DNA from: Polytrichum commune
Taxonomy: Eukaryota; Streptophyta; Polytrichopsida; Polytrichales; Polytrichaceae
Assembly: GCA_950295325.1 (NCBI GenBank)
Contig: OX485804.1
Coordinates: 4,588,001-4,652,000 of the forward strand
Reading direction: 5' to 3'
DNA length: 64,000 bases
This document shows, in pieces, positions 27,806-63,763 of this stretch. Both the position numbers and the translations under genes were made by a program. Below the pieces are notes generated by a model, which was not told the origin of the DNA, did no database searches, and was given only the letters and a program-made list of their open reading frames with translations. Numbering within the stretch: position 1 is the stretch's first letter; every line of letters begins with the position of its first letter.

Positions 27806-30800
27806 ATGGAATCACCGCATCAGCGGCAGCGAGGCATGGATTCTTCCCTGCGCCTGCTGCAACGACAGGAATCTTCTACCAGGGGACCACCCATCAAGGC
27901 CCTGGAGGACGATTTGATCAATCTGATTTTCGGCTACCTGGAGGACCCTAGGGACCGAAGTTCTGCCTCCATGGTGTGCAAGAAATGGCACGAAGTGGAT
28001 GGCCAAACCCGGAAGTCGGTCTACATCTCCAATTGCTACTCCATCCTGCCGGATGGCTTGTCCAAGCGGTTCCAGAATTTGGAGAAGATCAAGCTCAAGG
28101 GCAAGCCCAGGGCGTATGAGTTCGACCTTTTGGTGGAGGATTGGGGTGGGCATGCTGGGCCTTGGATCTATGAGATTGCCCGGTCTTACCCTAAGCTTCA
28201 ATCTCTCCATCTTCGCCGCATGGAGGTTACCGATGAAGATCTCCAGATTCTCTCCCAGCGTTGCACTTCCTTGCAGGTAATCTCTGCTTATGCTTAGCTA
28301 ACCCCATAACCGCCTTCTTTACCATTTTCTGTCCGTGCAACCTCAGCAGATTCCATACCAGTTTCTGTTTGTGCAAACCTCAGCCAGTGCATGGTCAGCA
28401 GCTCCTCAAACACGATTTTTTGTCTGTGTATCCTCTTGGGTATGGTTGTAGACAACTCAACTGAGAATCCCAGAACGATTCCGTCTGTGTATCTTTTTGG
28501 ATTTGGTTTCAGATAACTAAATTGGGAACCCTTACCAGTTTCTGTTTGTGTATCCTCTTAGGATTGGCTTTAGACAACTCAACTGGGAATTCCAGACATG
28601 TTTCGGTCTATATCCTCTTGCATTTGCTTTGAGACAACTCTATTTAGAACCCCATACCGGTTTCTATTTGCGTATCCTCTTGGATTGGGTTTCAGACAAC
28701 TAAACAGGGAATTCCATACCAGTTTCTGTCTGTGTATCCTCTTGGGATTGGTTTGAGACAACTCCACTGAGAATCCCATACCAGTTTTCCGTCTGTGTAT
28801 CCTCTTGGGTGTGGTTTTAGACAACTCCACTGAGAATCTTATACCAGATTCTGTCCGTGTATCCTCTTGGGTTGGTTTTAGGCAACTCCACTGAGTTTTG
28901 TGGAGTGTTTGCTAGCTGAAGACTCTTGTAAGCTTAGCAAATGTAGCATGATGAATATAGTGAGAGCATTCCATTCCAGTATTTGTCTGTGTAGTCTATA
29001 CCATTTTTTGTCTGTGTATCCTTTGGGGTTTGATTTTAGACAACACAATTGAGGAGATGTGGATTTGACCAGATTGGTCGACAAGAGATGTGCTGAGGGA
29101 GATTGCCCAAGTCATATTTGTCGCACTTCATGCCATGTCTATGAGTGTTGAGGTTATGTATGCCTGTGCAGAACATAATATGCTATGATGAGTTTGTCAA
29201 GTGCTAAGACCATCTTGTGGGTTTGCTTTGCTATTCTGGCAGAAATTGAAGCTGGACAAGTGCAGAGGATTCACTACTGAAGGACTCGAGTACATTACCC
29301 ATTTCTGCAGGTGCCTACTCCCAAACCAAGTGAAACCTATTCATTTTAGCTGACATTATACCCACTCATTCTTAGGAAAGGAAGACTTTGTTTCAAGTTG
29401 ATCTCTTCCATGGAATGTTTTTCGTCTTGTGTGTTTGACAAGGCTTTGTGGCTGCTGTTGTGATCAGAATCCTGAGGGTGCTTGACTTGGAGGAAAGTGA
29501 AATTGTAAGTAATAGTGAAGGGGAAGATAATGAAGCCACCGGAAAGTGGCTCCTGGAGCTTATAGAGAACAATGGCAAATTAGAAAGCCTAAACATCGCC
29601 TCAGTTAGCCTAGAGGAAAACCATATTTTACGTGCGCTGGGGGAGGTGACGAGTAAGTTGAAGTCCATCACTTCCCTCAAAGTCAGTGACATGAAGATGG
29701 AGAATTTCAGAACGCTTCTTAAGGAATGTGCAGAGCCCATGGTGGAGCTTGGCCTTGGTTGTTGGAGCTTTGAGGATCACAAAGTTGTCGCAGCGTCATT
29801 GCATCAATGGCTTTCAAAGCTCAAAATTTTGGACCTCAAGTTCTCGACATTGAGTGCTGAGGGACAGATTGAAATCTTAAGCCATTGCCAGTGTCTTGAA
29901 GAGCTTGAGGTAATGCATGCATTTGTGATGTATGTGAATTCCAGATCTATCTTTTTGATCCTGGAATAATATAGCATTCTTAAGCATGTGTAAGGATGTT
30001 CTCTTTCTATTCTAGTTTCAGATTAAATTTCCAAGAATCAAGGTCATTGCTTACATGCATGAATCCTAAGCACAATCGAGTGGCGAACTCTCAGTAGTTG
30101 ACACCTCATTGTTACTTATCTTCGGAAGAAAGCTTTTCCATCTACCAATATGCAATTCAAACACCTTGCCATTATGAAGGTCACTCTCCAAGATGTTCAT
30201 CTAGGAAGAACACCCACTACACCACTTAAGAATACTATAGACATTCCGCAGCCAATTTTTTTGCAGAGGGTTAACTTTGGAGTTTTGTGTCAATATGCAG
30301 GTGAGAAGTTTGGTGGGTGACAAGGGAATGGAGGTAATTGGCAAGACTTGCACACGACTGAAGAGGATTCGAGTGGACCAGGATTCTCACCAGGAGAGAC
30401 CAGTTTACATCACGCATAGAGGGATGATTGAAATCTGCGAAGGCTGCCGGGAGCTTCAATTTTTAGTCCTGTATCTTTCCGATATCAATAATGAGGCGCT
30501 TGCTGCTGTCGGCCGTTGCCTTCCAAAGCTCACCGACTTTCGCATTGTTCTCTTGGAGGTTGGATTCATGGTTTCAGATTATTATACTAAAGCATGACTT
30601 CAACCTTAAAATATGGTCCAATTTTTGAAGCAAGCGATTACTCACTTAGGAACTGCTTCCTCCTATCCACAATATGAGAGAAAGCAATTTCTTGTGTCAC
30701 AACTCCCCACCATGAAGGTGCACATTGTGGAATCATGAGAAACTTTCTCTCTCGACCCACCTAAGCATAAAAACTGCATCGTTTTATTGTCTAGATTGTC

Positions 30801-31936
30801 AAGGAAATGCCTTATTCTATCAACAAAACCTTTCCGTTCTATGAACCTGCCTTGTGTTGAGAAAGGCGGCCATCATCAAGTTTCATGGGAAAGCATCCTA
30901 TTAGAAAGAAAAGCTTTTGTTAGGTTTTACATTCTAAATCAGATATTGCAGTTCCTCTTCTATTCAGGGCTAAGGGTGATAAAATATTTACAAAACGGAA
31001 ACTGGTTTAGAACAAAATTCTTAAGTGGTGTAGTGGTTGCTCTCCCTAGATAAGCATCTTGGGGAGTACACACTCATTGAGAAATTTTCTGGTAGTAGCT
31101 GGGTGAAGGCTTTGTCCAAAGATAGTTAGCAATGGAGGTGGTCAATTAATGAGAGCTTGCCACTTGGCTATGCTTGGCATTTATGCATGTAATCAAGACC
31201 TCAAATCTTGGAAATTTATTCGTGGAAGCTTTAGAATAGAAAGAGAATGTCCTTACATATGTTCAAGAATGCTATACTTCAAATTCATATTCTAAGAGAG
31301 TATATTGTATTCATGCAGGTTTTGGCTAACGTTGAAGATCTTCCTCTTGATGTTGGTGTTGGTGCATTACTCAAAGGGTGCCCAATGCTTACACGCTTTT
31401 CTGTTTACCTACGTTCGGGAGGCTTAACCGATCGAGGCGTTGCGTATATTGGTCAATACGGTGGGAAGCTCAAGTGGATCCTTTTGGGCTGCTCGGGGGA
31501 GAGTGACGAAGGTTTGCGGCAGCTTGCGGCCGGCTGTCAACAACTTGAGCGGCTCGAGCTTCGTTCATGCCCTTTTGGTGAAGTAGCTCTTGCAAGCGCG
31601 GTCATGGCATTACCCTTGTTGAAGTACATATGGGTTCAAGGGCATGGAGCCACTGAAGCCCTTGGCAACTGTATTGTGAAATATAAACACGGATTTCTTG
31701 TTGAGTTGATGACAGAGAATAGGCAAATATTGGGTTACACGACACTCGCGAGCCCACGTATAGATCACCCGCCGTCCGTTAGGTTGATTGACCTGAGTGA
31801 AATCTACCAGCCTATGCAATTGGTTCCTCAAAGGTTGAATGATGACTCAAGCAGCGAAGTTTTCGACCAGCCTATGGGTAATTCGAATTCCGAAAGGTTG
31901 ATTGAGGACTCGTACGAACGCTATGACGATTTTTAA
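27806..31936 (+). CDS. COI1: COI1-like F-box/LRR jasmonate receptor
   Basis: Five coding exons: 27,806-28,276, 29,243-29,310, 29,468-29,909, 30,301-30,558 and 31,319-31,936, giving 618 aa (Arabidopsis COI1 is 592). All junctions are GT/AG and keep the frame. Known role: the F-box subunit of a nuclear SCF ubiquitin ligase that, with JAZ repressors, perceives jasmonates and targets JAZ for degradation. F-box at about residues 31-70 (ALEDDLINLIFGYL), then leucine-rich repeats to about 590. Ligand-pocket residues equivalent to Arabidopsis R85 (R102, in GKPRA), R348 (R351), Y386 (Y385), R409 (R408), Y444 (Y443, in VYLRSGG) and R496 (in LRSC) are all kept. The A384 equivalent is V383, in FLVLYLSD. 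Residue pairing is by eye. A Met at codon 11 is an alternative start. The 5' leader is duplicated, and introns 1, 3 and 4 carry repeats. Confidence 0.93.
28300..29060. repeat. ~61-bp minisatellite in COI1 intron 1
   Basis: About nine diverged tandem units between 28,420 and 28,900, each with GTATCCTCTTGG, then TTTTAGACAACTC, CTGAGAATCCCATACCAG and TTTCTGTCTGT. A looser unit follows at about 28,985-29,050. It occupies most of the 966-nt intron. Minus-strand open frames here simply translate the repeat. Confidence 0.85.
29970..30233. repeat. left arm of inverted repeat around COI1 exon 4
   Basis: Lies in intron 3. Starts TATAGCATTCTTAAGCATG and ends ACTACACCACTTAAGAAT. It is the diverged reverse complement of 31,017-31,276 in intron 4. 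Confidence 0.85.
31017..31276. repeat. right arm of inverted repeat around COI1 exon 4
   Basis: Lies in intron 4. Starts ATTCTTAAGTGGTGTAGTGG and ends CAAGAATGCTATA. It pairs along its whole length with 29,970-30,233. The arms may be two opposite copies of one transposon or the ends of a single foldback unit. Confidence 0.85.
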
Positions 31937-38982: not shown

Positions 38983-41898
38983 TTAAAAGGTGTGTGCTCT
39001 GTGGATTGTGCCAGGCCCTTGTGCAGCATCCAAAAGTCTCTTTCGGGCTCGAACAAGCTCATTAAATAGCTGATTTACTTGATTTGTCACGTTCTCCAAT
39101 CCTTCCTGCACAGTTGGCAATGCAGAGACTTCAACACATGTTTGGATAGATGTAGAAGACCATGGCTATAAAATATTACTGTGGATTTATTTTTGTTGCC
39201 TTCTCAAACACCCCACTTTGAAATCAACCTAATCTACCTCCTAAGTTAAGCCACAAAAACTTCTCCTAGCAAGTTATTCGATGTTTCGTTTGCATGTCAC
39301 TTGTTCATGTCCTTGAATGCATTCTCATATGCCCAATCCAATTTTCCAAACTACTCTTTACAGCCTTGGGCATTTCCGAGCTGAGCAAGACTCAAATTTT
39401 GAATTTTCATTTTTGATCTCTAGGAGGGGTTTTTGAAAGGCAAGTTCTCCCAGGCTTAGAGAACTGTGGAACCCTTGTATGGTAGCTATGAGGTCTAGAC
39501 ATGGGATACTAGCTCCAACATCCATGCTGGTACTGCACACTTATGATGTTCATATGGTCATGCACCTAATCCTATCAAATATTACCAAGTTAAGGCAATT
39601 TCTATATCTATACCCAATTAAGCACATATTGTGTGACAATGCACAGAGAATTGCATCCCAACACTGCACGCTTAACGTAAGGATCATATCCCTATGCATT
39701 CTAGTCCAAGAGTTTCTTGGGCAACATAAACCTGAATTTCCTCTAGGTTGAATAGCATTCAGAATCTAGAAAATCAAAATAAAAACAAAGTGGTTTTGGA
39801 ACCGAAGGTCATTATGGGCTAGTGAAATTATGCGAAGATTTATATCGGTCGAACAAAGTTAAAAGTTTGGACCAATCACAATTCATCATTGTCTTGCCAA
39901 CATCTGAGTGATCGCTAGCTAAACATAAGGTATGCAAGTGTTATTCAATGACTTTTCCCAATCGAACACCTGTGCTTGATTGGTGTGTGGTCTGGTGGAG
40001 ATTAAAGAACAAACACCATGAAAGACACATGTTTAAGAGAGATTGGACTATGTCTTCAAGTTTTCTTAACTACTCCACAATCAATTGTGAACACAATCGA
40101 GAGACTCTAAATTTTCAGTTAAGGAATCAACAAACAAGTACTTCCAATAACCACAACTAAATCAGAAGAAGTCCAATTTTCAATCCAATTTTTGCTGCTG
40201 CTTCATCATAGAGTTGTTAATGCAACACAAGTTTCGGTGTGTACATGTAATCAGTAGAAAGTCGGGGAACCTGAAAAACAAAGCGAATGACACTTCCAGA
40301 CCTTGGACAAAGTATAATAGTGAAGCATTTTGGAAGTACCTGGATATGGCCAAGGAGCTTCCCCATTTGTTGCACTGTGCTTTCGAGCAATTGCAAGGGA
40401 GGCGCTTCCCCCAATTCCGCACGGGCAAGTACAACCTCAATCTCCACCCGCAAGTTTGACGTGCTCTCCTCCACGAGCTTGAGCTCTTCAAAGGAGAACG
40501 GATAGCTTCGGAGCTTCCTCGTGGCACGCTCATCACGTATGAGCTCAAACATCTCCTTGCGCAATCTCTCTTGCAAGCGGCGGAATGACAACGACCACAC
40601 ATTCTCATCGCCTTGAAACACCTCGAGGTTCTGTTGCCAGATTGTGGAGGTCGGGTGCGAGCTCGAGTCCCTCAAAAGCGTCCACACAAGAATACTCGCG
40701 ATAAAATCCGTGGTCTCCCGGGTCACGTGCATCACTTGGGCTAACCCAATGCTTCCCCTGCCTTTTGCGCTCTTGGAGCTCGGTGGAGGCGGGATTTGGG
40801 GAGGCACTATGAACTTCTCACCGATGGCTATGCTCGTGTGCCGTGCGGGGCCAACATTATTATTGAAGCCGGCGTCCGGGTTGAGGAGGTGCCGTTCAGA
40901 TTGAGAGTGAAGCAAGCTGGGGAATGTAGAGGAGTTTGTGAGGGGAAGGTGGACGAGCTGTTTGAGCTCCTGCTCACAGCTCTGGAGTGCGACCATCAAG
41001 CTTTTGTCCGATATGTATTCTTGGCTTCCGGGGTTACATCTGCCATGTAACAAAACAATGATTATAATCAAACTAATCAAGTGGAGCCGTCATTCCGTTA
41101 TTACTGGACATAAATGGTATGTAATAATAATAGCACAATTTTCTACTTGACAAAGGAGCTCCTGGGATAGCATCTAGGGCAGAACCTTTTTGAGTAGAGC
41201 TTCGGAAACTAAGAACAGGGAGATCAGACAGCTAGTTACAATTGAGCCAGTTGAGTTTGAGAAATGAGCAATTCAAGTTCAAGACTTTGAGCAGATCACC
41301 AATCATTTCAGAGGAATTTATAGAATATATCTTGACTTAATAAAGGAAAACCGAAAGATATCAACATGTGACCGATGGGACTTGGACACATTTGGAACTT
41401 GAGAGATGTTGCCCAAAATCTCCCCGGACATTGTTCGGAAACCCACACAATTGTAAGTAACTTAGTTGAGGTAAGTAAAGTCAGCGAGGTGTTAATTTTG
41501 AACCTTTGGGAGGCTTGGACGACAAGCTGCACGCACATCATCAAATGCTCGAACCTCGACATTGCAGGCTTTATAACGTTACAGACGTCAAGAAGTTTCA
41601 TACTCTCCACCATGTACTCCTCCACCCAAAAGTCCTCGGAGCCTCGCACGTCCTGGGAGAGGGCACGCAGATCCTCAAACAACGTCACCATGTCCGAGTA
41701 GGTTGTGCGCATGAACTCGACGGCCACTGAAACCCATTCGAGCGTCATCCACTTTGGGTGCACAGCTTGCTCGAGTGCATCAATCTTGTTGGCCAACGCG
41801 ACGCAAAACGCCTCACACTTGTCGCTCTGCTGGTTCCCGCGCTTCAAGTGGGATCCCATGGGCGGTTTCCGTTGTGTCATCGTTGTCCTCGATGCCAT
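38983..41898 (-). CDS. BYPASS1/ROH1-like protein
   Basis: Three minus-strand exons: 41,898-41,504, 41,039-40,340 and 39,105-38,983, giving 405 aa (BPS1 is about 349). Junctions are GT/AG and keep the frame: exon 1 ends in AG and exon 2 supplies the third base of an Arg codon; the second junction is phase 0. Family features: an N-terminal helical region with FWVEEYMVESMKLLDVCN (residues about 93-110), then SRFEHLMMCVQLV; in exon 2 a hydrophobic stretch FIASILVWTLL and WSLSFRRLQERLRKEMFELI; the terminal exon supplies the conserved C-terminal helix ending NELVRARKRLLDAAQ. Known relatives: BPS1 restrains a root-derived mobile signal, and ROH1 binds the exocyst subunit EXO70. Function here is inferred. 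Reading through the second donor would give a different C-terminus ending at 40,217. The start Met was chosen by family length; upstream codons are open. Confidence 0.78.
41222..41345. repeat. dispersed unit of the 64-bp repeat family
   Basis: Contains GTTGAGTTTGAGAAATGAGC and TTCAAGACTT, as in the array at 20,285. Lies inside intron 1 of the BYPASS1-like gene. It shares GGAATTTATAGAATATATCTTG-like sequence, in part, with 45,615-45,740. Confidence 0.65.
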
Positions 41899-42785
41899 GA
41901 TGGCCTCCTCAAACTGTAACCTCACAATCAAAACTTGCGAAAGATGTATGTATAGTGAATCCAGAGCAGGTGGCTTCTTTTGCCTCTCCTCATGCAACCA
42001 CAATCACCCCACCACTTCTCTCCCTCCCGCATGCAATTCGCAGGAGGATCTTAATATTTTCTTTACTAACTTACTGCCTGCAATCTTTTCCCAAATGGTA
42101 CAGAAGAATAACTCCTCAAACCAGTTTCAAAAGAATTTGCAGATTGCCCCACATAACCTACGGCCAAAGTAGCAACATCAACAATCACCGATTTAAAAAG
42201 AATGTGCAGAAAGAACGCCACCACCAAGTCTGTTAATCAATTAGTCCTCACCCCTCCGGAATTTAAAAGAAGTTCTTCGGCATCATCATGCAGCCATCAA
42301 GATTGACTCTTCTACCACCATCATCATCCAGCCACTTGCAGGTTTATGCCTCTGGGTTGCCTCTCGAATGGTCCATTCCTCAAAGGAGATTGACAGACGG
42401 TTGAAAAACAACATGCTCAAGCAAACCGGCCGGAAGGTGGACAACATCTAACCCCTCCTCCTTCGCGGGAATATGAGCAAGCTGGCAAGCAAGCAATCCA
42501 GAGCTTCACATCAGCTCTCGCATCGCCATAGCCGGGCTAAATTGTGTAGGAACGGGACCAGGAAACCTACCCCACCCCACCTCACCCCCCGAACTTCCTG
42601 TTGAATTCGAGGGTTAAGGTTGGGATGCTCCCTTAGCAAGCAACTTGACCTTGCAAGAAAGTGATCCACACTCCATGCTCCCACCCATTGACAATCTCAA
42701 CACAACATTCTTCACTGACACACTCCACCTCTCTCACCGTGGACCAGAAAAAGAGAAACCAAGGAAGAAACCGAAACCCCCAGGG

Positions 42786-53785: not shown

Positions 53786-54217
53786 TGTCACGTGAGGTGA
53801 CATCGGGGGCTAAGTCACGTCAATTTAGGAGTAAATGGACTCCACTAGGAGTCCATGTGTGTTGGGATGAGTAACGGACTCCATTGGGAGTCCTAGTTAG
53901 TTGTGCATCCACTCCATGGATGAACTCCACATTGGATTGGGGTTGTATGGAGAGGAAGGCCTCTTGACTTGCCATTGTTGTCAAGTCAAGTCTTGTGAGT
54001 GTGTTTTGAGAGAGAGAGAGCTTGTTGTTGCTTTCTCATGGCTATGGTGTAATAGATTATGAGTAAAGCCTTTGCATTCTTTCTCCACCACTTGCACTCT
54101 TGGATTCTCCCTTCGTGGAGTGAGAGATAGCTTGACTCTTGTGTGTGAATTTTAGAGTTTCTTAAGCTTTGTAAGGAGACATTTTAGTTTCTTAAGCTTG
54201 GAGAGAGAAACCCTCAT
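53786..54217 (+). repeat. gypsy 5' LTR copy (Y block; lacks X)
   Basis: Identical to 63,226-63,657 except for one base (TCTTGTGAG against TCTTTTGAG). Starts TGTCACGTGAGG. Contains a G-box CACGTG (53,789-53,794), TCACGTCA (53,815-53,822), two short hairpins at 53,835-53,856 and 53,876-53,893, and the presumed start of R at 53,974. Confidence 0.92.
53974..53986 (+). promoter_or_regulatory. predicted R start / self-primer
   Basis: ATTGTTGTCAAGT is the perfect reverse complement of 54,218-54,230. If the RNA begins here, its 5' end can fold onto the site next to U5 and prime minus-strand synthesis, as in Tf1 of fission yeast. The second copy is at 63,414-63,426. The start site is inferred. Confidence 0.65.
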
Positions 54218-54230
54218 ACTTGACAACAAT
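54218..54230 (+). promoter_or_regulatory. primer-binding site, self-priming type
   Basis: ACTTGACAACAAT begins exactly where LTR identity ends. It does not start TGG and does not resemble a usual tRNA 3'-end complement. It pairs over 13 nt with the LTR segment at 53,974-53,986. Confidence 0.7.
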
Positions 54231-55549
54231 TGTTCAAATTTTTCATTTTTGGTTGTATTTCTGAGCCAGAATGGCCCAGTAATGAGAGCAAATGAGTGAT
54301 ACAAGTGTTTGAAAGCTTAGTTTGTCATTTCTTGCAACCTTCAAGAAGATTTTGAGAGAAATCTTCCCATTTTTCTTTTGTTGTCTCTTTGTGTTTTCTT
54401 CAAGTGTTGATGGTTGAATCTTGAGATTCCATTTGGTCTCAAGATTCTCAAGTCACATCATTCTTGCTTGCAATTTGTAAAAGCAAAAGTTTAATTCTTT
54501 TAAAAATCTACAAACAAATACAAACCAAACTTCAAATCCGAATTTTTTTTTTAATAATATTTTTTTGAGCTCCGGAGCTCCACGGACACTCTTGGAGCTC
54601 CTGGAGCTCCTGGAGCTCCAATTCTGCAGCCGGGGCCGGAAAAATCCCGGGCCCCACGGCGGGCGGCGGCAGCCGGGCCCCGCGGCGACGTGGCAGCGGG
54701 CCGGGGGCGGGCGGGCGACAGCCTGGCCGGATGGCGGGCGGCGCCAGCCTGGCCCCCCTCCCCTTTTCAAGGTACCCTTGCCCCCCCTTTGAGTTACTTA
54801 ATTAATTAGTTTAGTTAAGATTAGTTAACTTAATTAGTTAATTAGGTTGGTTCATTAAGTTAGTTAATTAAATTAATTAGCTTAATTAATTAGGTTCTTA
54901 GTTTAAGTTAATTAAGTTAATACATTTAGGCTAATTAAGTTACTTAGCTTAAGTTCATTAAGTTAATTAATTAAGTTAATTTTTTTGTTTTGTTTGTTTT
55001 GTTTTTTTTTAATTTTAAATAAACCGGATTTTTTTTTTTTTTTTTTAAATTTTTTTTTACTTTCACTTTCAAATTTGGCATTTCATTGTCACAAACTTTG
55101 AGGCTCAAATTTGGGGGCATACTAGCTCCGATTGAAGTGAAATTTGAGCCTATTTTGTGTGAAATTTGCCAAGGAATCCAATGGTGTAATTGAATTTTTG
55201 ATTGGAAGTCAAAATCATTGCTGAAATTGTTAATTTCAACGCTGATTTTTGTTTTTGGGAGCAAATTAACTCCGATTGGAGTGAAATTTGAGCCTAATTT
55301 GTGTGAAATCTTCCTAGGAGTCCATTGGTGCACTTAGTTTGTTGATTGGAGTTCATAATCACCTTGGAAATGAGCCTTTTCAACGCTGATTTTTCATTTT
55401 AATTACCAATCTCAAACCTTTGCACAATTTTGGAATTCTGGGGGCATAAACACTTGGCATTTGGCAAGGGATTGCCATTTAGATAGCCCGCAACAGGTGC
55501 AGGTTGCCGTTACCTTGTAGATAGTTGCAGGTACTCAAGTGATTATTTT
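54231..55549 (+). other. gypsy 5' leader with GC block, AT block and duplication
   Basis: About 1.3 kb before the Gag ATG. It holds a strongly GC-rich block (about 54,568-54,770, with GGAGCTCCTGGAGCTCC repeats), then a TTAATTAAGTT-type block (about 54,791-54,980), poly-T tracts, and a 125-bp direct duplication at 55,126-55,250 and 55,270-55,394 (period 144). Apart from a small chance frame it has no coding capacity. Packaging or translation roles are possible but not shown. Confidence 0.75.
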
Positions 55550-56617
55550 ATGGTGCAAACTAGGAGCCGATATTATCGATCTCCATCACCAGATTATTTG
55601 GAAAACGTGCATACCACAAATCTTGAGCCAGAGGTAGATACCAACGAGGCTTTTGAGCCTATTTCGGCGTTGGACACTACTAATAGGCTTCGGATTTGGA
55701 GTGTCGGCACGTTCGACGACATGGAGGACGATCGCCACAATTCAGTGCGTGATCGGTTTTCAGGTCGAGCTGGGGGCATTTCCTTGCCCGATTGGAAACT
55801 CCGGTTTCGTACCTGGATTAAGGAGAAACGCCAAAGGTCTTCCAATTTCAATGATTGGTATGCCTTTGAACTTCTGCCTCAACATTTGGAGTATGAGGCA
55901 CTCCAAACTTACGAACGATGGACAGAGGGTCATCAGCGACAACTTCGGGAGGTGGAGCAGTATTGGGAGGCCCGGGTTGAACTTATTTCAGCCCTTAAAG
56001 ATGGGGCGATTGCCACCTTAGCTCCACCTACCTTAAAGGAGGAGGATCCACTGGAGGAGTCTGAGGACCAAGAACTGGCATTTGGGCCAATGGTGGCTGG
56101 CAGTAGCACGGCTACCCTTTCACGGATGGCACGTGCTACACAGGCAGCATTGACGGCTGTTGGTCCACCACCTCCATTTAATCCCCTTACAAAATTTGTC
56201 GCACATTTGGAAGTGGAGTATGGTGGGTTTCGGCGAGACCAGATGCAGCGCATCCAGGATTTCCGCCGAGAGAAGGATGATACTCCACGGACCATGTATA
56301 CGCGACTCGCGCGATTTGCTGTGGAGTCGGGAGGTGTTTTTGCTGAGAGTCAGCTTGTTAAAATATTTTTGTCTAAGATTGACAAGCGGCTACTTGAGTT
56401 GGCATCACCTCGGATTATCCTCGACTACGAGGGCCGAGCTACGCTTGCACAAGCGTTTGCCGTGGTTGAGAAATGTGATCGGGCTCTTTGCCAACATGAT
56501 GCCACGGATATGGTATCTTGGATGACAGAGAGTCCGAAACCAAGAAGAATTGTCACAGCTACTAGCAGTTTAGCTGAGACTCAACCCGTCAAGGAGCAAA
56601 AGATTTTGCATTGTTAG
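55550..56617 (+). CDS. Gag
   Basis: 355 codons from ATG 55,550 to TAG 56,615. A Gly/Arg-poor acidic N-terminus is followed by a retrotransposon Gag-like helical region (ISLPDWKLRFRTWIKEKRQR, residues about 74-93; LLPQHLEYEALQTYERW) and a second region with a VEYGGFRRDQMQRIQDFR motif (about 222-239). It forms the particle shell. The TAG falls inside the first CCHC zinc knuckle: Cys 355 is the codon before the stop, and GCGEAGHSKNDPNC continues in frame after it. Gag lacks its first knuckle unless the stop is read through. A C-to-T change from CAG would explain the stop. Confidence 0.85.
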   Translation: MVQTRSRYYRSPSPDYLENVHTTNLEPEVDTNEAFEPISALDTTNRLRIWSVGTFDDMEDDRHNSVRDRFSGRAGGISLPDWKLRFRTWIKEKRQRSSNFNDWYAFELLPQHLEYEALQTYERWTEGHQRQLREVEQYWEARVELISALKDGAIATLAPPTLKEEDPLEESEDQELAFGPMVAGSSTATLSRMARATQAALTAVGPPPPFNPLTKFVAHLEVEYGGFRRDQMQRIQDFRREKDDTPRTMYTRLARFAVESGGVFAESQLVKIFLSKIDKRLLELASPRIILDYEGRATLAQAFAVVEKCDRALCQHDATDMVSWMTESPKPRRIVTATSSLAETQPVKEQKILHC

Positions 56618-59131
56618 GGTTGTGGAGAAGCTGGTCATTCGAAGAATGATCCCAATTGTCCTAAGAAGAAGAAAACTCAGCCTTTGGGAAAATTCAAACA
56701 AAAGATGGAACCAGTAAGGGCAGGGGACAATTCTAAGAAGAGACAATTGAAATGTAGCCATTGTGGTGGCACTAATCACGATGTGGATCATTGTTTCCTA
56801 CTTCATCCTGAGATGCGGCCTGCCAGTTATGTCACTGGAAAGTCTCTAAGGGAGCAGAGTCTTGAGGCTAAGGTGGCAGAGCTTGAGCAAAAGCTCAAAT
56901 CTTCTGCATCTTTTGCTCAAATTTCTGAGCCGCATGTCGGTGGTGGCACCTCGGGTTCGGACATGTATATGTTTGGAGCAGCTGGAGAGGTGGTGGCGGC
57001 GGCTTCTACTCGCTCACAAACATTGGCAGATGCGGTGGCTTCCACGAGTGGTGGTAGCAACGAGGTGCTACATCCTCGCCATGCCGGACCAGCTGATCAA
57101 ATTGGTCAAGCACGTTTACCTCTTTCATTTGGATTGGTAGACACCACTGTTGTTGGGGCTAAAAACCCTGTACCTTTGAGAGATGGGGATTCCATCTCGA
57201 AGGATGTTACGCAGGCATTGGCATATAAAATTCTCCATATGCCAATTTTCTCGGGTTCGGAGTTTATGGCTTCGGATTTCAAGCCTGCTGCAGTTTTTCA
57301 TTTAGCTGGGAGAATGTTAGAAGGTAAGGCGGATTTGCCATCCCTTCAAGTATCCCAAGCTGTGGTTGACGTACCTGTGGCTGAGGAGGTGGAGGACTTA
57401 GCCAATTTGCGAGCGAGTCTTGCGGATGCGGCGATCATTGCTTTTGGTAAGCAAACTGATATTCCTCCAGCATCAATTTCAGTAGTGGATACGTCATTTT
57501 CGAATTATGCGTCAGGAGCGGCATATCTTGCAGACATTTCTGCAAGGCCTGCTCGCGAACGGCATAATTTGCAACCTGGAGTTGTACGGCTGATGAACGA
57601 CAAATCTTTGTTTGTCGTTTCACGCACGGATATGCCCACTATCCGTGCTACACCACTGAAAGTTATGATGGATTCCGGTGCTCAACCGGTTATGATTGGC
57701 AAAGGACTCGCTGACAGTCTTGGATTGACGCCAGCAAGCTTGGATCCTTGTCCATTCACTATTGTGACTTCAGTAGGGGGCACTGAACGTGCAACAGGTT
57801 ACACCAAGGCACCTCTACGTTTGATTTTTCATGTGGGGGCAGGGCCTACTTACACTCATTTGTCAATGAAGTGTGTTGTTACTAATGCTACCAACTATGA
57901 TATACTTGTTGGTCAGCAAGCTCTTTACCCACTTGGCTTTGGTTTGGATAATTGGACGGAAGAGGCATGGATTAGACCAGGATGGTCCACTGGAGATGGC
58001 AGGAAGGTATTTATTCCCGTCACATTTGCAGCCACTGCTATGACTATGGTTGCGGAGGCAATGTTTGGTTGCAGCGGTTTAGTTGCAGATTTGCCTTGTG
58101 CTCCAGTTTTATTGGAGGAAACAATGGACTACACTTGTAATGCGGCAGAACAACAATTTTTACCATCTTTTCAAATTCCTGCTCGACATTTCAAGGATCC
58201 AACTCCACCATGGCGAACTCCTAAGGAGTTATCCGACCATTGTCGACACATTGTAGCGGATTTGGAGCTTGGAGAGGCACCCCCAACTTCATCCTCATTT
58301 TCTTTTGCTCAACCCATTCGTTGGCAACCATCACCTGAAGGTATTGTTCTTGTGGAGATCTTTGGAGGCATTGGCACAGGTTTGGCGGCAGTGTTGGAAG
58401 CTGGAATTACAGTTCGGCGATATATTCATGTGGACAATGGGTATGCAGCCAACAGAGCCGTCCGACATCACATCCAACAATTGTTGTTGAGATACCCCGC
58501 ACAATTGTCAGCCTCTGCCATTCATGGATGTTGTGGTCAACTTCCTCAAGATGTCACTATGATTAGTGATGAGGATTTGAGAAGGTTGGGCCACGTGGAT
58601 TTGATTATTGCAGGATGGCCTTGTCAAGGTCATTCGCGGGCAGGAACTGGCCAGGGATTGGATGATCCTAGGTCTAGTTTGTTTGCGGATTTGATGCGAT
58701 TGACGCAATGGTGGTTTACCCACCAATCAACTCCGCCAGGGTACATTTTCGAAAATGTACCATTATTGGGTGATACCCGACACAAAGTGGTGAAGGATGG
58801 TGAGTACATTAACCAAATTCTGGGTACTCCAACATTTCTGGATGCTGCATCTTTGGGATCCTTTGCTCATCGGCCTCGTTGGTTTTGGACCAACTTGGTA
58901 TCACCTCGGGTGCTTTCAGCGGCGTTTGCCCGCATTCCCCGCCTTATGGATCGCAAGGTGGATGACATTTTAGATGATCATCGTGTTTCCTTGGCAGTTA
59001 CCAAGGATGACATCTTGCCATTTGCATTAATTAACAAGATGGGCATTCCGAGAGGTGCACTACCTACTTTTGTGACATATCCACAGTCTTTTGCATTTCG
59101 ATCTCGTGGACCTGGCATGGTTTGGGATTAA
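56618..59131 (+). CDS. zinc knuckles, protease, DNA methyltransferase (motifs I-VIII)
   Basis: Same frame as Gag and open for 837 codons to TAA 59,129; the first ATG is at 56,684. Contains the rest of knuckle 1, a second CCHC knuckle (CSHCGGTNHDVDHC, about 56,756), a short coiled coil (LEAKVAELEQKLK), an aspartic protease with VMMDSGAQPVMIG (Asp at 57,671), and the methyltransferase from about 58,340. Either the product is made by readthrough from Gag, or it is dead in this copy. Protease lies before the methyltransferase, so the captured domain sits between protease and reverse transcriptase. Confidence 0.85.
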   Translation, partial: GCGEAGHSKNDPNCPKKKKTQPLGKFKQKMEPVRAGDNSKKRQLKCSHCGGTNHDVDHCFLLHPEMRPASYVTGKSLREQSLEAKVAELEQKLKSSASFAQISEPHVGGGTSGSDMYMFGAAGEVVAAASTRSQTLADAVASTSGGSNEVLHPRHAGPADQIGQARLPLSFGLVDTTVVGAKNPVPLRDGDSISKDVTQALAYKILHMPIFSGSEFMASDFKPAAVFHLAGRMLEGKADLPSLQVSQAVVDVPVAEEVEDLANLRASLADAAIIAFGKQTDIPPASISVVDTSFSNYASGAAYLADISARPARERHNLQPGVVRLMNDKSLFVVSRTDMPTIRATPLKVMMDSGAQPVMIGKGLADSLGLTPASLDPCPFTIVTSVGGTERATGYTKAPLRLIFHVGAGPTYTHLSMKCVVTNATNYDILVGQQALYPLGFGLDNWTEEAWIRPGWSTGDGRKVFIPVTFAATAMTMVAEAMFGCSGLVADLPCAPVLLEETMDYTCNAAEQQFLPSFQIPARHFKDPTPPWRTPKELSDHCRHIVADLELGEAPPTSSSFSFAQPIRWQPSPEGIVLVEIFGGIGTGLAAVLEAGITVRRYIHVDNGYAANRAVRHHIQQLLLRYPAQLSASAIHGCCGQLPQDVTMISDEDLRRLGHVDLIIAGWPCQGHSRAGTGQGLDDPRSSLFADLMRLTQWWFTHQSTPPGYIFENVPLLGDTRHKVVKDGEYINQILGTPTFLDAASLGSFAHRPRWFWTNLVSPRVLSAAFARIPRLMDRKVDDILDDHRVSLAVTKDDILPFALINKMGIPRGALPTFVTYPQSFAFRSRGPGMVWD

Positions 59132-59290
59132 AAATCCCAAACTTATGAGGAGCCTACGGCAGATGAGCGGGAACGCGCCATGGGTTTTCTTACAGGTACC
59201 ACGGCTGCTCAAGGGCTTCAGGAAGGTCAGAGACGTTTCCTATTGGGGCAAGCTATGGATCTTAATAGCATTGTGTGGATAATTGGAATT
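58340..59290 (+). other. captured C5-cytosine methyltransferase domain (Dnmt3-like)
   Basis: Motifs in normal linear order: I FGGIGTG (58,361), II HVDNGYAANRAV, IV GWPCQGHSRAG with catalytic Cys at 58,622, VI FENV (58,748), VIII HRPRWFWTN (58,868), IX ERERAMGF (about 59,168) and X RRFLLGQAMDL (59,231). The order is not the permuted one of plant DRM enzymes. The IV sequence followed by GLDDPRSSLFADLMRL, and the ends of VIII and X, look most like Dnmt3. An in-frame TAA (59,129) separates VIII from IX. The enzyme would methylate cytosine in DNA; target preference is unknown. Every residue needed for catalysis that I can place is present. Confidence 0.88.
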
Positions 59291-59647
59291 TGTCTTGCTG
59301 CTCAACAACGTATGGATGACCAATTGCTTACTCTGAGGGCAGAGAACAATGGTCAGGGGGCAATGGAGCCGCAATCCAAGGATCACATTGAGGTCAATGA
59401 CACCGAGGGATTATTTTCTTTGAAACTTCATGTTGCGGAAGAGCTTCGAGCCCAACTTGTTTTTTCGGCTTTGGGCCAAGAGTTTGGGAAGTTGGAGGCC
59501 CATAAAATGTTTCCACTTCTATTTCTTGGTGATACTTCATATGTGGGTAGCTATTTAGCTACACAAACTGATTGTGGTGGAGAGGATACGCATTTGGATT
59601 CAAGTGTAGATGATGGGGGCAAAGGTGTTGCCCTCTCCACGGACTAG
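59132..59647 (+). CDS. methyltransferase end (motifs IX-X) and linker
   Basis: In frame with the preceding segment, beginning right after TAA and ending at TAG 59,645. The first roughly 50 codons complete the methyltransferase (DERERAMGFLTGTT, then RRFLLGQAMDLNSIVW). The rest is an acidic linker of unknown role. The frame is conserved across both stops, which suggests that the ancestral protein was continuous. Confidence 0.75.
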   Translation, partial: KSQTYEEPTADERERAMGFLTGTTAAQGLQEGQRRFLLGQAMDLNSIVWIIGICLAAQQRMDDQLLTLRAENNGQGAMEPQSKDHIEVNDTEGLFSLKLHVAEELRAQLVFSALGQEFGKLEAHKMFPLLFLGDTSYVGSYLATQTDCGGEDTHLDSSVDDGGKGVALSTD

Positions 59648-62600
59648 CAATCACAGGCTGTGCTGGCACCAATTGGCAATCCTTCTATGAAGAAGGAAAC
59701 CACGGAGTTTGACGATTGGCCAATTGAAGTGGGGCCAAAGCTTACTGGTGCCGAAGCACGAAAGGTACGGGCATTTATTCGCTCTTACCGTAATTGTTTT
59801 GCCTTTAGTCTTCATGATCTTGAAGGATATAAAGGTAAACCTGTTCGTATTCAACTCGAGGACGACCACCCTATTTTCAGACGGCCATACAGATTTAGTA
59901 CGTCTGAAAGGTTGGGTGTTCAAACTCGATGTCAAGAGTTATTGGCAGCGGAATTGATTGAACTCTCGAATGGAGAGTATGCTTGTGCCACGGTTATGCC
60001 GTCAAAGAAGGATATCTTTGGCAACTGGACGGAAAAACGGATGTGTGGTGATTATCGTCCAGTCAACCGCAAGACCAAGTCGGATCGATATCCAATGCCG
60101 ATGCCGGAGGAGTTGTTTGATGCACTAGGATTTTCTAGAATCTTCAGCACTTTGGATTTGAGGTCTGGTTATCACCAATTACCTTTGTTGTTGGGTGATC
60201 GGGTGAAGACCGCATTTTGGGGAATTGATAAAGATGGCAAGGATCAACTTTATCATTGGAAATTTCTGCCATTTGGTCTCAAGAATGCACCAGCTGAATT
60301 CCAGCGGGTGATGGACCAATTATTGGTTGGTTTGCCGTTTGCTAGATGTTACATTGATGATGTTATCATCTTTAGTAATAGTCCACAGGATCATGTGAGA
60401 CATTTGCAAGCGGTATTTGAACGACTTCAACGGTGGGGACTCCGTTTACATCACGGTAAATGTAAGTTTTTCCATGATCAATTGCCCTATTTGGGCCACA
60501 TGATTGTTCCTGGCGGTCTTGGTGTGCAACAGGCGAAGGTGGATGCTTTGTACAAAATTCCCGCACCTAGTGATGTACCACGGCTTCGTGCATTTCTAGG
60601 ATTGGCAAATTATTATAGGAGGTTTGTCAAAAACTTTAGTTTGATTGCCAAACCTCTTACCATTCTCACGGGGAAAGACCAACCATGGATTTGGAGTCGG
60701 GAACAACAACAGGCATTTGATACATTGAAGCAGAGGCTCGGTTCAGCGCCAGTACTTCGACGCCCGGATGTGTCTAGAGCTTTTCAATTGCACACGGATT
60801 GGAGTGCAGTGGGATTGGGAGCGGTATTGACACAGAAAGATGAAGAGGGAAAGGAATATGTGGTGGCTTATGCATCTAGAAGCAATAATAGTGCTGAATC
60901 TAATTATTCTTCTTATGAAGGCGAGGCCTTGGCGGCCGTTTGGGCCATTGCACATTTTCGACCTTATTTGTATGGGCAAAAGTTTACTTTGGTGACTGAT
61001 CATCAGCCTTTAAAATGGCTTATGGAATCAGATAAGCTCACCGGGAAACTTGCTAGGTGGGCATTGTTACTTCAGGAATATGATTTTGAAGTTGTTCACC
61101 GAGCAGGAATTGCCAACTTGGATGCAGACGGATTGTCTCGCAATCCAAGTCCTTCAGATGAGGATTTAACTGGAGCTAGGTGGCATGGAGATTGTGATCG
61201 TGAGGCAGTGCCGGGTTGGCATGCTGCCACATATCTCACAATGATGTCGGGATTGGCTGCTGAGATCCTTGTAGAAGAACAGGATGAGGAGGTTGATAAA
61301 TCTCTCGTTGTTAGTGATGTGTGGGAAGACCAAGCGGTCTTGCACAAACTTCAACAAGCGATATTTCCTCTTGGACTATCTGCTATGGAGCGAGATAGAG
61401 TTAGTCACAGGATAACAAGGTTTCGTTGGGCAAACAGCTTGTTATTTCGTGTGTGGCCGAACGGAACGAGGCGCATCGTTCCAAGGCCAGATCAAAGAGC
61501 TTCTTTGGTGCGGCAAGTGCACGAGGAGTTTGGACATTTTGGAGTGCGAAGGACACACTCTATGTTGCGCAACCAATATTGGTGGACTGGTATGTATCAA
61601 CAGGTTTCCGCTTATGTTTCTAGGTGTGAAGTATGTGACCGGGTCAGGTCAAGTTTTAATACTTTATCACCTCAACTTCAGCCTTTACCTATTATGGGCT
61701 TGGGATATCGTTGGTCTTTGGATTTTGCTGGACCGCTTACTATCACTCCACGTGGCTCCAAGTATGTGCTTGTGATGGTAGAGCATTTTAGTAAGTGGAT
61801 TGAACTCGTGGCTCTTCCCCAAAATTCCTCAGAATTGGCGGCTATGGCATTTCTTGATCGAGTTTTGGCACGGTTTGGAGCACCTGCAGAGGTGTTGACG
61901 GATCAAGGGAGAGAATTTCTTGGATCTTTCGAGGCTTTGTGCACCAAGGCTTTGATTGATCATCGGACAACTTCCAGAGATCACCCTGAGGCAGATGGCT
62001 TAGCTGAACGAGTTGTTCAGACGGTTAAGCGCGGTTTGCGGAAGTATGGATTGCTTCATGGCAACCATCGCGATTGGGACTTGATGTTACCATGGATAGC
62101 AATGGGTTATCGTTTCAGCAGGCAAGCATCTTTGGCATCCTATAGTCCTTACCAACTCTTGTATGGACGGGAACCAATTTTACCTAGCTCAGTGCGAGAG
62201 ATATTGGCTCCCGTGGTAAACTTGGATGATCCAGATGTTTGGGCTCAATGTCTTCATGACCGAGCAGCGTTCTTCCAAAAGGCCATGCCTATGGCTATGG
62301 AGAACTTGAATATTGCTCAACATCGTGATACATTACGGTATGCCCGGATCCGCAGTGGAGCTTATCGACCTCAGGTTCGTAGATTTTCCAAGGGGGATTA
62401 TGTTTACTTGCAACGGGAGGCGCCTACGACATTGGATGTCAAGGCTGGGCGCACGATTTTGCGGGTAAAAGATGTCTTGCCAAGTGGTATATTATTGCTT
62501 GAAGGCAAGGATGGACGGGAATGTCGTGAGCATTCAAAGAATTGTGCTCCATGTCACCTTCCCATCGACGGCTCTGTGCATCCCGAGTTGGCGGTTGTAC

Positions 62601-62779
62601 CACAGGGTCTGCCTTGTTATGTTTGTGGAGAGAAGAAAGGAGCTGCAACAATGTTATTGTGCGACCAATGTCAACGTGGATGGCACATGGCATGTTTGAC
62701 ACCCCCCCCTTTTTACTCTTCCTTCTGGCAATTGGGTTTGTCCTCGTTGTCGGAAAGCCTCTCATTCCGTGGCCGTTAA
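59648..62779 (+). CDS. reverse transcriptase, RNase H, integrase, broken PHD finger
   Basis: Same frame, first ATG 59,690 region (an alternative initiator at 59,660), 1,030-1,040 codons. Reverse transcriptase: MCGDYRPVNRKT, FSTLDLRSGYHQLPL, catalytic YIDD (60,350). RNase H: LHTDWSAVGLGAVL, EGEALAAVWA, TDHQPLKWL. Integrase: HEEFGHFGVRRTH...CEVC zinc finger (61,518-61,635), then D in LDFAGP, D in LTDQGREF and E in DHPEADGLAERV. A basic KGDYVYLQREAP region follows, then a PHD finger from 62,615 (CYVC, LLCDQC, WHMAC). Order RT-RH-IN and the sequence type are Ty3/gypsy. In place of the chromodomain of chromoviruses there is a PHD finger. A 1-nt shift in C8 at 62,702-62,709 puts the final CPRC pair in the +1 frame. 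Confidence 0.9.
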   Translation, partial: QSQAVLAPIGNPSMKKETTEFDDWPIEVGPKLTGAEARKVRAFIRSYRNCFAFSLHDLEGYKGKPVRIQLEDDHPIFRRPYRFSTSERLGVQTRCQELLAAELIELSNGEYACATVMPSKKDIFGNWTEKRMCGDYRPVNRKTKSDRYPMPMPEELFDALGFSRIFSTLDLRSGYHQLPLLLGDRVKTAFWGIDKDGKDQLYHWKFLPFGLKNAPAEFQRVMDQLLVGLPFARCYIDDVIIFSNSPQDHVRHLQAVFERLQRWGLRLHHGKCKFFHDQLPYLGHMIVPGGLGVQQAKVDALYKIPAPSDVPRLRAFLGLANYYRRFVKNFSLIAKPLTILTGKDQPWIWSREQQQAFDTLKQRLGSAPVLRRPDVSRAFQLHTDWSAVGLGAVLTQKDEEGKEYVVAYASRSNNSAESNYSSYEGEALAAVWAIAHFRPYLYGQKFTLVTDHQPLKWLMESDKLTGKLARWALLLQEYDFEVVHRAGIANLDADGLSRNPSPSDEDLTGARWHGDCDREAVPGWHAATYLTMMSGLAAEILVEEQDEEVDKSLVVSDVWEDQAVLHKLQQAIFPLGLSAMERDRVSHRITRFRWANSLLFRVWPNGTRRIVPRPDQRASLVRQVHEEFGHFGVRRTHSMLRNQYWWTGMYQQVSAYVSRCEVCDRVRSSFNTLSPQLQPLPIMGLGYRWSLDFAGPLTITPRGSKYVLVMVEHFSKWIELVALPQNSSELAAMAFLDRVLARFGAPAEVLTDQGREFLGSFEALCTKALIDHRTTSRDHPEADGLAERVVQTVKRGLRKYGLLHGNHRDWDLMLPWIAMGYRFSRQASLASYSPYQLLYGREPILPSSVREILAPVVNLDDPDVWAQCLHDRAAFFQKAMPMAMENLNIAQHRDTLRYARIRSGAYRPQVRRFSKGDYVYLQREAPTTLDVKAGRTILRVKDVLPSGILLLEGKDGRECREHSKNCAPCHLPIDGSVHPELAVVPQGLPCYVCGEKKGAATMLLCDQCQRGWHMACLTPPPFYSSFWQLGLSSLSESLSFRGR

Positions 62780-62792
62780 TGGTCATGATTGA
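62605..62792 (+). other. C-terminal PHD finger, frameshifted
   Basis: C4HC3 pattern: CYVC, then LLCDQC, then H and C in WHMAC, all in the main frame. The last pair CPRC lies at 62,739-62,750 in the +1 frame, which ends at TGA 62,790. All eight zinc ligands exist in DNA but in two frames across a C8T5 tract. PHD fingers often bind histone H3 tails, so a role in choosing integration sites is likely but inferred. Confidence 0.8.
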
Positions 62793-63107
62793 GGATTTTA
62801 TGGATGTTTACCACATGTTTTAGTGGTGAAGTTGTTATTTAGTTGGTTGGAAATTTTATGGGATTGAAAACCACATTGAAAGAGTTATCCAAGAATTCAA
62901 CATTAATTGTTGAAGGCGATTAAGGATGGGGCTCACATTGCACCCAGCCTACAGTTCTTGGATTACTTTGTCAATCACGAGTTTAATTCCTTCGATTACT
63001 ACTACCCAATTAAATATGTATAGATGTAGCAACAACTTCATCATGTTCAACAACTCTATCAATGAGTGTGTTTGTTCCTAGCCGATTGGAGGGGCTCCTT
63101 ATCCGCT

Positions 63108-63117
63108 AGTGGGGGCA
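63108..63117 (+). promoter_or_regulatory. polypurine tract candidate
   Basis: AGTGGGGGCA directly before block X. It is the only purine-rich stretch near the 3' LTR. It places the start of U3 at X, not at TGTCACG. Confidence 0.65.
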
Positions 63118-63657
63118 CTTGAAGAGGTGGTTGTTAGCATTTTAGTTTGCTATTTTATTTTGCTAATTGATGTTGACAACGACACTCGATCTGTTGTGTT
63201 TAACGATCTTAGTTTACACGACAGCTGTCACGTGAGGTGACATCGGGGGCTAAGTCACGTCAATTTAGGAGTAAATGGACTCCACTAGGAGTCCATGTGT
63301 GTTGGGATGAGTAACGGACTCCATTGGGAGTCCTAGTTAGTTGTGCATCCACTCCATGGATGAACTCCACATTGGATTGGGGTTGTATGGAGAGGAAGGC
63401 CTCTTGACTTGCCATTGTTGTCAAGTCAAGTCTTTTGAGTGTGTTTTGAGAGAGAGAGAGCTTGTTGTTGCTTTCTCATGGCTATGGTGTAATAGATTAT
63501 GAGTAAAGCCTTTGCATTCTTTCTCCACCACTTGCACTCTTGGATTCTCCCTTCGTGGAGTGAGAGATAGCTTGACTCTTGTGTGTGAATTTTAGAGTTT
63601 CTTAAGCTTTGTAAGGAGACATTTTAGTTTCTTAAGCTTGGAGAGAGAAACCCTCAT
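63118..63657 (+). repeat. gypsy full-length LTR (X-GC-Y)
   Basis: 540 bp, following the polypurine tract and ending CCCTCAT. Contains block X (63,118-63,223), GC, then block Y, whose 3' boundary matches the PBS-adjacent end of the 5' copy. The X/Y joint reads GACAGCTGTC, a perfect palindrome. Confidence 0.78.
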
Positions 63658-63763
63658 CTTGAAGAGGTGGTTGTTAGCATTTTATTTTGCTATTTTATTT
63701 TGCTAATTGATGTTGACAACGACACTCGATCTGTTGTGTTTAACGATCTTAGTTTACACGACA
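63658..63763 (+). repeat. partial second LTR (block X only)
   Basis: Repeats 63,118-63,223 with one mismatch and stops at GACA, exactly where the 5' copy would continue with GC-TGTC. Joined to the LTR end, it forms an LTR-LTR junction as in two-LTR circles. Confidence 0.82.

Follow-up and report, generated by a model that had tools for sequence, protein, structure and literature searches.

A Dnmt3-type methyltransferase in a Ty3/gypsy retroelement of the moss Polytrichum commune, with split repeats and a predicted internal integration site

Introduction

What use has a retroelement for a silencing enzyme of its own, an arrangement that inverts the usual arms race? The question is raised by a stretch of 64,000 nucleotides from Polytrichum commune (assembly GCA_950295325.1, contig OX485804.1, positions 4,588,001 to 4,652,000; hereafter the window), in which a Ty3/gypsy element at 53786-63763 holds a Dnmt3-type cytosine methyltransferase. 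An earlier, sequence-only reading of the window had proposed a complete Dnmt3-like methyltransferase within a plant Ty3/gypsy polyprotein, between protease (PR) and reverse transcriptase (RT) and in the same frame as Gag and Pol. Pfam matches and open reading frames (ORFs) bear out that placement, with the order Gag-PR-methyltransferase-RT-RNase H (RH)-integrase (IN)-PHD in a single frame. The account was incomplete, in that it passed over the split repeats, a readthrough stop, a self-primer and target duplications.

The reading that we favour, with a probability of roughly 0.6, is that of a Ty3/gypsy element with its own methyltransferase, which would be expressed by UAG readthrough, self-primed, reverse transcribed with a B-A repeat and integrated via an internal palindrome, and whose methyltransferase would act on the element's own cDNA. 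Elements of this kind are known from Klebsormidium (KnitGypsy-Dnmt3, 2018); new here are the division by UAG, the form A-body-B-A-B together with a DDE integrase and target duplications, and a covarying self-primer. Coordinates are collected in Table 1.

Table 1. Features of the methyltransferase-bearing element, in window coordinates.
Feature	Position	Strand	Remarks
Repeat A1	53786..54217	+	432 bp; left end of integrated element; starts TGTCACG; 1 mismatch vs 63226-63657; left end recurs beside target duplication in other copies
Predicted self-primer ATTGTTGTCAAGT	53974..53986	+	Probable RNA 5' end; reverse complement of the 13 nt directly after A1; A position 189
Predicted primer binding site ACTTGACAACAAT	54218..54230	+	Directly after A1
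Gag	55550..56617	+	Ends at lesion stop TAG 56615-56617; assignment rests on position and homology
ORF, zinc knuckle, aspartic protease, methyltransferase motifs I to VIII	56684..59131	+	Ends at lesion stop TAA 59129-59131; MMDSGAQP 57665-57688; knuckle by eye
Dnmt3-type C5 cytosine methyltransferase domain	58340..59290	+	Interrupted by TAA 59129-59131; between protease and RT
TAG CAA TCA, conserved stop with CAR-YYA readthrough context	59645..59653	+	Between methyltransferase and RT
ORF, RT, RNase H, DDE integrase, PHD finger	59660..62779	+	PHD cut by frameshift at C-run from 62702
Polypurine tract GTGGGGGCA	63109..63117	+	Immediately before B1; conserved in copies
Repeat B1	63118..63223	+	106 bp; ends TTTACACGACA
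B-A junction palindrome GACA-GC-TGTC	63220..63229	+	Proposed integrase site; 20-nt TTTACACGACAGCTGTCACG identical in window family, subfamily 2 and L031
Repeat A2	63226..63657	+	1 mismatch vs A1
Repeat B2	63658..63763	+	Right end of integrated element; A2-B2 joint CCCTCAT/CTTGAAG

The methyltransferase is of Dnmt3 type

The profile search against methylase families that the sequence-only reading had called for gave a C5-methylase match in the ORF at 56684-59131 (PF00145, E 8.4e-12, 45.6 bits, cut-off 22). The C5 motifs, numbered in the usual way, stand in the unpermuted order I, IV, VI, VIII-X: motif I (VEIFGGIGTG, 58352-58381), motif IV with PCQ (58613-58645), motif VI with ENV (58745-58768), a motif VIII-like AHRPRWFWTNL (58865-58897), and IX-like and X-like stretches at 59153-59188 and 59231-59281. 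A protein search found 51 homologues at E ≤ 1e-3.

Among solved structures the window stretch matches DNMT3A first (E 1.2e-8). A profile of 33 relatives, searched against the PDB, likewise favours DNMT3A (E 7.3e-26, 93.7 bits) over DRM-type enzymes (1.2e-10, 43 bits), HaeIII (3e-7, 32 bits) and DNMT2 (23 bits), and returned no chain named DNMT1 at E ≤ 0.01. When the relative P0003, modelled with AlphaFold2 (mean pLDDT 81), is used as query, the first Foldseek match is DNMT3A (E 2.7e-18, template modelling score 0.79 by target, 21% identity), and DNMT3 entries make up 50/50 of the matches listed. Given the 51 homologues and the first rank of DNMT3A by sequence, profile and fold, the match is not due to chance; and since these three kinds of match all favour DNMT3A, the enzyme is of Dnmt3 type. 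Dnmt3 is its nearest group, ahead of DRM, Dnmt1, Dnmt2 and the bacterial enzymes, in this placement by structure-database matches. Enzymatic activity is predicted from the sequence; de novo DNA methylation has been reported for the enzyme of a Symbiodinium retrotransposon (PMC5890265).

The window copy is young but broken. Its repeats are nearly identical (A1 and A2 differ at 1/432 positions, B1 and B2 at 1/106) and the copy is therefore young, as had been supposed. TAG 56615 breaks Gag at a place where P0002 and P0004 have tryptophan. Within the methyltransferase, TAA 59129-59131 lies in frame where P0001 has serine and parts motifs I-VIII from IX-X, so that the domain is not complete, as had been proposed; the frame continues past the TAA to 59644. 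The PHD finger named in the sequence-only reading is likewise present but cut, with its continuation visible in another frame.

The protein ORFs otherwise have the Ty3/gypsy order PR-RT-RH-IN with an rve integrase. The protease match (PF13650, E 5e-4, 21.1 bits) is below its cut-off of 24.3, and the Pfam scan gave no Gag match for the Gag ORF and no chromodomain match. In DDE integrases the second D and the E are usually separated by 35 residues; here they are separated by 34 (61715-62008), and by eye L031 and the Klebsormidium nitens protein P0153 are alike.

Copies in the genome and selection

We searched the genome (G000, 408 Mb in 64 contigs, seven of them 42-78 Mb long) for the methyltransferase and scored at least 145 matches from 534 candidates. 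Identity is 87-100% for 129 of them and 66-67% for the other 16. Other copies with open frames, for which a search had been proposed, do exist: 95 of the 145 are stop-free over the searched stretch, whose end falls before motif IX. With many recent open-frame copies in a land-plant genome, the role of the enzyme becomes testable in a plant. A PF00145 search of the genome gave further places beyond the scored matches. One PF00145 match about 52 kb from the window (G000:C2:4703606-4703959, minus strand; profile positions 1-100 in a 196-residue frame) is perhaps an exon of a cellular methyltransferase.

Comparison of family 1, to which the window copy belongs, with the more distant subfamily 2 indicates that the methyltransferase domain is under purifying selection. 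Proportions of nonsynonymous and synonymous differences (pN and pS) are 0.229 and 0.741, with the synonymous distance dS near saturation, and the ratio of median dN to median dS is 0.12, from the 86/176 pairs with computable dS. Within subfamily 2 the ratio is 0.25 and within family 1 0.48, the latter at little divergence and with a frame-shifted copy (L043) included. The corresponding values for the RT part are 0.075, 0.14 and 0.35.

Outside the moss genome, viral contigs gave no match to a single-protein query, and 30 loci with distant methylases to a profile query; eight of these were taken as outgroup. Of the five loci found among genome contigs, L031 alone is a near relative (methyltransferase pN 0.192, pS 0.767, dS saturated). 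It has open ORFs on a 9285-bp contig titled as a cyanobacterial metagenome-assembled genome (CADCWO010000201.1), whose first and last 127 bases are identical, like an assembly loop of 9158 bp. L031 is likely a mis-binned contig of a moss-type retroelement.

A conserved UAG divides the polyprotein

UAG-CAR-YYA is a readthrough context first known from tobacco mosaic virus. It is found between methyltransferase and RT, in frame and followed by an open frame, in 29 of 30 genome copies read onward and in L031, and the frame is shifted in the sole exception, L043. All 30 carry the methyltransferase segment; copies lacking it, which would have spoken against the sequence-only reading, were not among them. 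The 30 comprise 22 copies of family 1 (the window copy being L036) and eight of subfamily 2, taken as best matches and chosen copies and not as a random draw. Because it is conserved in the family, TAG 59645 is a family feature and not a lesion. By eye, 10 of 11 long moss-type relatives (P0002, P0004, P0006-P0010, P0012, P0013, P0017, P0019) end near this place, P0004 ending slightly earlier with another tail; the Marchantia gene models P0028, P0030, P0033 and P0036 continue into Pol. The context thus predicts readthrough at a stop that divides Gag-PR-methyltransferase from RT-RH-IN-PHD, a division that is new here.

Gag, protease and methyltransferase would accordingly form one polyprotein ending at the UAG, and RT, RNase H, integrase and PHD would be made by reading through it. 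Production at the Gag level makes it probable that the methyltransferase enters the particle. It probably methylates the cDNA, or a circle made from it, de novo, so that this DNA escapes treatment as foreign or is preserved until the proper step; the PHD finger probably steers integration by reading histone H3. Instead of marking the element's own cDNA, the enzyme might act on the host or on RNA, or be retained for slowing the element to the benefit of the host. Such roles are listed in the discussion of PMC5890265, which also describes CHH and CHG methylation on the K. nitens element copies; we nevertheless think them somewhat unlikely, as the position on the Gag side of the readthrough stop suggests packaging and the domain is constrained across families.

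Split ends and target duplications

The integrated form in the window is A1-body-B1-GC-A2-B2 and, unlike that of an ordinary Ty3/gypsy element, lacks full long terminal repeats (LTRs) at both ends. We read the flanks at 41 places (16 family-1 and four subfamily-2 copies and the window, then 20 further family-1 copies). Both outer ends are visible at 30 of the 37 family-1 places, window included; the A1 start was not recognisable in the stretch fetched at five (L066, L074, L106, L108, L110; at L067 the right end was missing as well), and the right end was not visible at L141 and L145. Of these 30 copies, 27 are A-body-B-A-B and three (L054/55, L068/69, L136/137) A-body-B. A perfect 4-bp target duplication lies directly outside TGTC...GACA in 26 of the 30; those without are the window, L076/77, L114/115 (TGGC/CGGC) and L130/131. 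In subfamily 2, L082/83 is A-body-B-A-B and is flanked left and right by TATC; on the right, L079 and L081 have B-A-B, and L085 has one B.

These counts bear on whether this is an ordinary LTR element with odd ends produced by chance recombination or assembly. The window copy taken alone, without a perfect duplication, would allow it; the recurrence of the same ends in the 27 copies and in L082/83, and an identical B-A junction in L031 from another source, make it highly improbable. A plainly truncated 5' LTR was also considered, and the copy survey of ends speaks against it. DIRS-like A-body-B-A-B ends in an element that has a DDE integrase and makes 4-bp target duplications are new here.

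The A2-B2 joint is exact in 28 of 31 copies, single substitutions nearby allowed. Of the other three, L061 and L073 each carry a deletion at a short homology and L071 has an extra base, traces that end joining would leave. Genome-wide we counted 122 A-B joints, against 0 in the control. Among 100 joints listed, 71 could be paired with a scored family-1 methyltransferase on the same strand and no more than 20 kb away. Every one of these 71 joints lies 3' of its methyltransferase, 60 at a distance of 5.0-5.7 kb and 11 at a greater one; the remaining 29 have no scored partner.

As separate observations on the repeats, three B repeats, two of them 108 bp apart, lie 3' of one copy (G000:C1:45101044-45101875, minus strand), and L058/L059 and L072/L073 carry partial internal A duplications. 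Within a copy these duplications occur in A1 and A2 alike, as would follow from a single template for both.

Priming and the copied repeat

A stretch of A is complementary to the bases that follow A1. The self-complementarity extends over 13-15 nt, begins ACTTG and in family 1 and subfamily 2 starts directly at the A border. In subfamily 2 the primer site is ACTTGGCAAGAATGC, matched in the copy's own A over 15 nt in L082 and 13 nt in L078; in L031, where we set the A border ourselves, it is ACTTGACAAAGAT, matched over 13 nt. Primer and primer site covary across the three groups (family 1, subfamily 2 and L031), and 0/2000 shuffles matched in each of six tests. Because the two change together, the covariation is strong evidence for predicted self-priming of the Tf1 kind, in which element sequence near the RNA start is complementary to the primer site; the RNA would start near A position 189. 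None of six tRNA-type patterns that we tried was located after A1. The polypurine tract varies to GGGGGGGCA in L083 of subfamily 2 and in L031.

Since the primer site follows A1 and the purine tract precedes B1, B-A is probably the repeat copied by reverse transcription. Within a copy, B1 and B2 differ at a mean of 0.61 positions (31 copies), against 3.11 between the B1s of different copies, and 50 minority states in B are common to B1 and B2 and 19 private. A1 and A2 differ at a mean of 3.05 positions within a copy (19 copies, with one outlier of 31) against 8.99 between copies, and a copy's own A2 is nearest to its A1 in 17 of 19.

DIRS elements have the same repeat order and are not known to make target duplications. 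Were replication here truly DIRS-like, the RNA would run from A1 through B2, the inner B1-A2 would serve as template to restore the ends, and A-body-B-A-B would be made directly and inherited. The repeat order, also given for KnitGypsy-Dnmt3 in PMC5890265, fits this, as do the strict orientation of the 71 placeable joints and the exactness of most A2-B2 joints. We consider it unlikely all the same, as the 4-bp duplications, the rve integrase with D, D and E, the closeness of B1 and B2 within a copy, and the primer site and purine tract that mark B-A as the copied repeat all stand against it. No tyrosine recombinase family was among the Pfam matches up to E 10 in four stretches scanned; above about 0.1, however, most matches are removed by the filters of HMMER.

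A model of integration through an internal palindrome

In the self-primed scheme, the RNA would start inside A1, fold its 5' end onto the site after A1 and prime itself as Tf1 does. Reverse transcription would copy the B-A repeat at each end and give a cDNA with the ends CTTGAAG...CCCTCAT. Genome copies, unlike this expected cDNA, end TGTC...GACA, and they hold the A2-B2 joint inside; for these reasons we infer that the cDNA ends are joined to each other and that integrase acts on the B-A palindrome. It would cut GACA/GC/TGTC in the upstream repeat and join both sides to the target with a 4-bp duplication, leaving the cDNA ends unused. These would be joined as A2-B2, before integration as a circle or afterwards, and the product would be A-body-B-A-B.

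The anatomical case for such an internal, circle-junction-like integration site, as read from the copies, is strong, and the cutting chemistry is putative. Foamy virus integrase in vitro cuts palindromes at 2-LTR circle junctions on both strands after CA (PMC1180852), as predicted for the site described here; the foamy virus palindrome is made by joining cDNA ends, whereas the one found here is internal to the repeat, away from the cDNA joint. A claim of 1984 held that integration uses an internal circle junction; for retroviruses the circle model was later dropped (PMC11054761). The element ends described here separate the frame of reverse transcription from that of integration, and so bear directly on an old question, namely whether an internal LTR-LTR-like junction is open to a DDE integrase.

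Several observations weigh against the self-primed, internally integrating element that we favour. Mirror copies (A-B-A-body-B) are absent among the 71 placeable joints, so that some asymmetry between the junctions must be supposed. Only 23 of 31 copies have their own B2 nearest to B1, ties allowed; the window copy is flanked by GGAA/TGAA; recombination between B1 and B2 could account for the three A-body-B copies; and the constraint on the methyltransferase is weaker than that on RT.

If a 2-LTR circle were opened at random, mirror copies should arise, and their lack among the placeable joints speaks against this. Once a 2-LTR circle is finished its two junctions do not differ, so that the choice between them has to fall earlier or depend on a mark. 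The strict orientation could be explained if reverse transcription finishes the upstream junction first and the downstream one later; conserved CpGs flanking the cut could be the mark that distinguishes one junction from its twin. We tentatively propose a natural retroelement that integrates via an internal circle-junction-like palindrome and not via its cDNA ends, with the Dnmt3 enzyme belonging to that route. Encoded DNA methyltransferases are found together with the A-body-B-A-B form in DIRS, in SymbioDIRS and in the present Gypsy lineage; the reason may be that circular or internally cut DNA needs a mark if it is long-lived.

Relatives and known systems

The likeness to elements of charophyte algae, to which the sequence-only reading pointed, holds: KnitGypsy-Dnmt3 of K. 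nitens (de Mendoza 2018, PMC5890265) and P0153 are of the same kind. Like the window family, KnitGypsy-Dnmt3 has the Gypsy domain set with Dnmt3 and RT in the Pol polyprotein, A-coding-B-A-B repeats (Figure 4 legend) and purifying selection; the hosts differ, moss here and Klebsormidium there. P0153 has the methyltransferase before RT, as in the window. In this partial record the two lie in one frame, whereas the conserved UAG splits them in the window family, and no PHD was found in it, whereas P0052, a near relative of the window, has a full one. The sections of PMC5890265 available to us contain no discussion of priming or target duplications of the Gypsy element.

The copy does stand in a land-plant genome, as had been thought notable, but is no lone oddity, since proteins of the same make occur in Marchantia, Calypogeia, Sphagnum (all among the 51 homologues) and Klebsormidium. 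An integrase search (120 listed of 323 proteins) has Klebsormidium P0153, Haematococcus and Volvox among the matches listed. Of 102 proteins with a methyltransferase match, four have the domain before RT with RT, RH and IN all present, and 18, such as P0131, have these with the domain between RH and IN; the rest are partial, including four shorter proteins of the second architecture, such as P0108. The second architecture, with the domain between RH and IN, is probably algal. In a tree of RT-RH-IN (44 of 57 rows used, 13 without methyltransferase having been dropped; simpler model, no outgroup), a branch with support 100/99 parts the 18 RH-methyltransferase-IN rows and Haematococcus P0170 from the rest, including P0153 and the window. 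The methyltransferase tree (74 of 102 proteins passing a coverage filter, with the window, L031 and eight viral-contig rows; 19 thinned out, 65 used) separates 57 rows of the window's kind from the viral-contig rows. It does not place P0153, and speaks neither for nor against the independent acquisition in Klebsormidium proposed in PMC5890265.

SymbioDIRS-Dnmt3 and DIRS share split A-coding-B-A-B repeats and an encoded DNA methyltransferase with the window family, but use a tyrosine recombinase (PMC5890265). Tf1/sushi and plant Tcn1, self-primed Ty3/gypsy elements, share the self-complementary primer and primer site (PMC6317226); the window family differs in its methyltransferase and PHD, its permuted integrated form and the lack of a chromodomain match.

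We found no report of such an element from a land plant in the literature outside subscription papers, and no literature on REM1/PHD. The main text of PMC5890265 has no mention of moss, liverwort, Marchantia or PHD, and uses bryophyte once, for cellular Dnmt3; that of the plant LTR survey PMC6317226 mentions neither methyltransferase nor PHD. The accessible parts of PMC12344493 refer to earlier reports of DNMT3 carried by LTR and DIRS retrotransposons, for which PMC5890265 is cited, and those of PMC6453930 and PMC10952607 name no element-encoded enzyme.

Other features of the window

ORFs of an F-box gene, presumably COI1/TIR1-like, lie on the plus strand at 27803-31936; the first matches Transp_inhibit (7e-21) and F-box_5 (4e-14), the second has only weak leucine-rich-repeat matches and the third none. 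Like the nearest named proteins, this gene points to a bryophyte. On the minus strand, a BPS1/ROH1-like stretch at 41308-42003 has E values of 6e-4 and 2e-3, both under the cut-off, and its neighbour, the ORF at 40217-41080 on the same strand, had no match in the Pfam scan. A Ty1/copia-like fragment is found at 21636-22421 on the minus strand (gag_pre-integrs, 6e-10).

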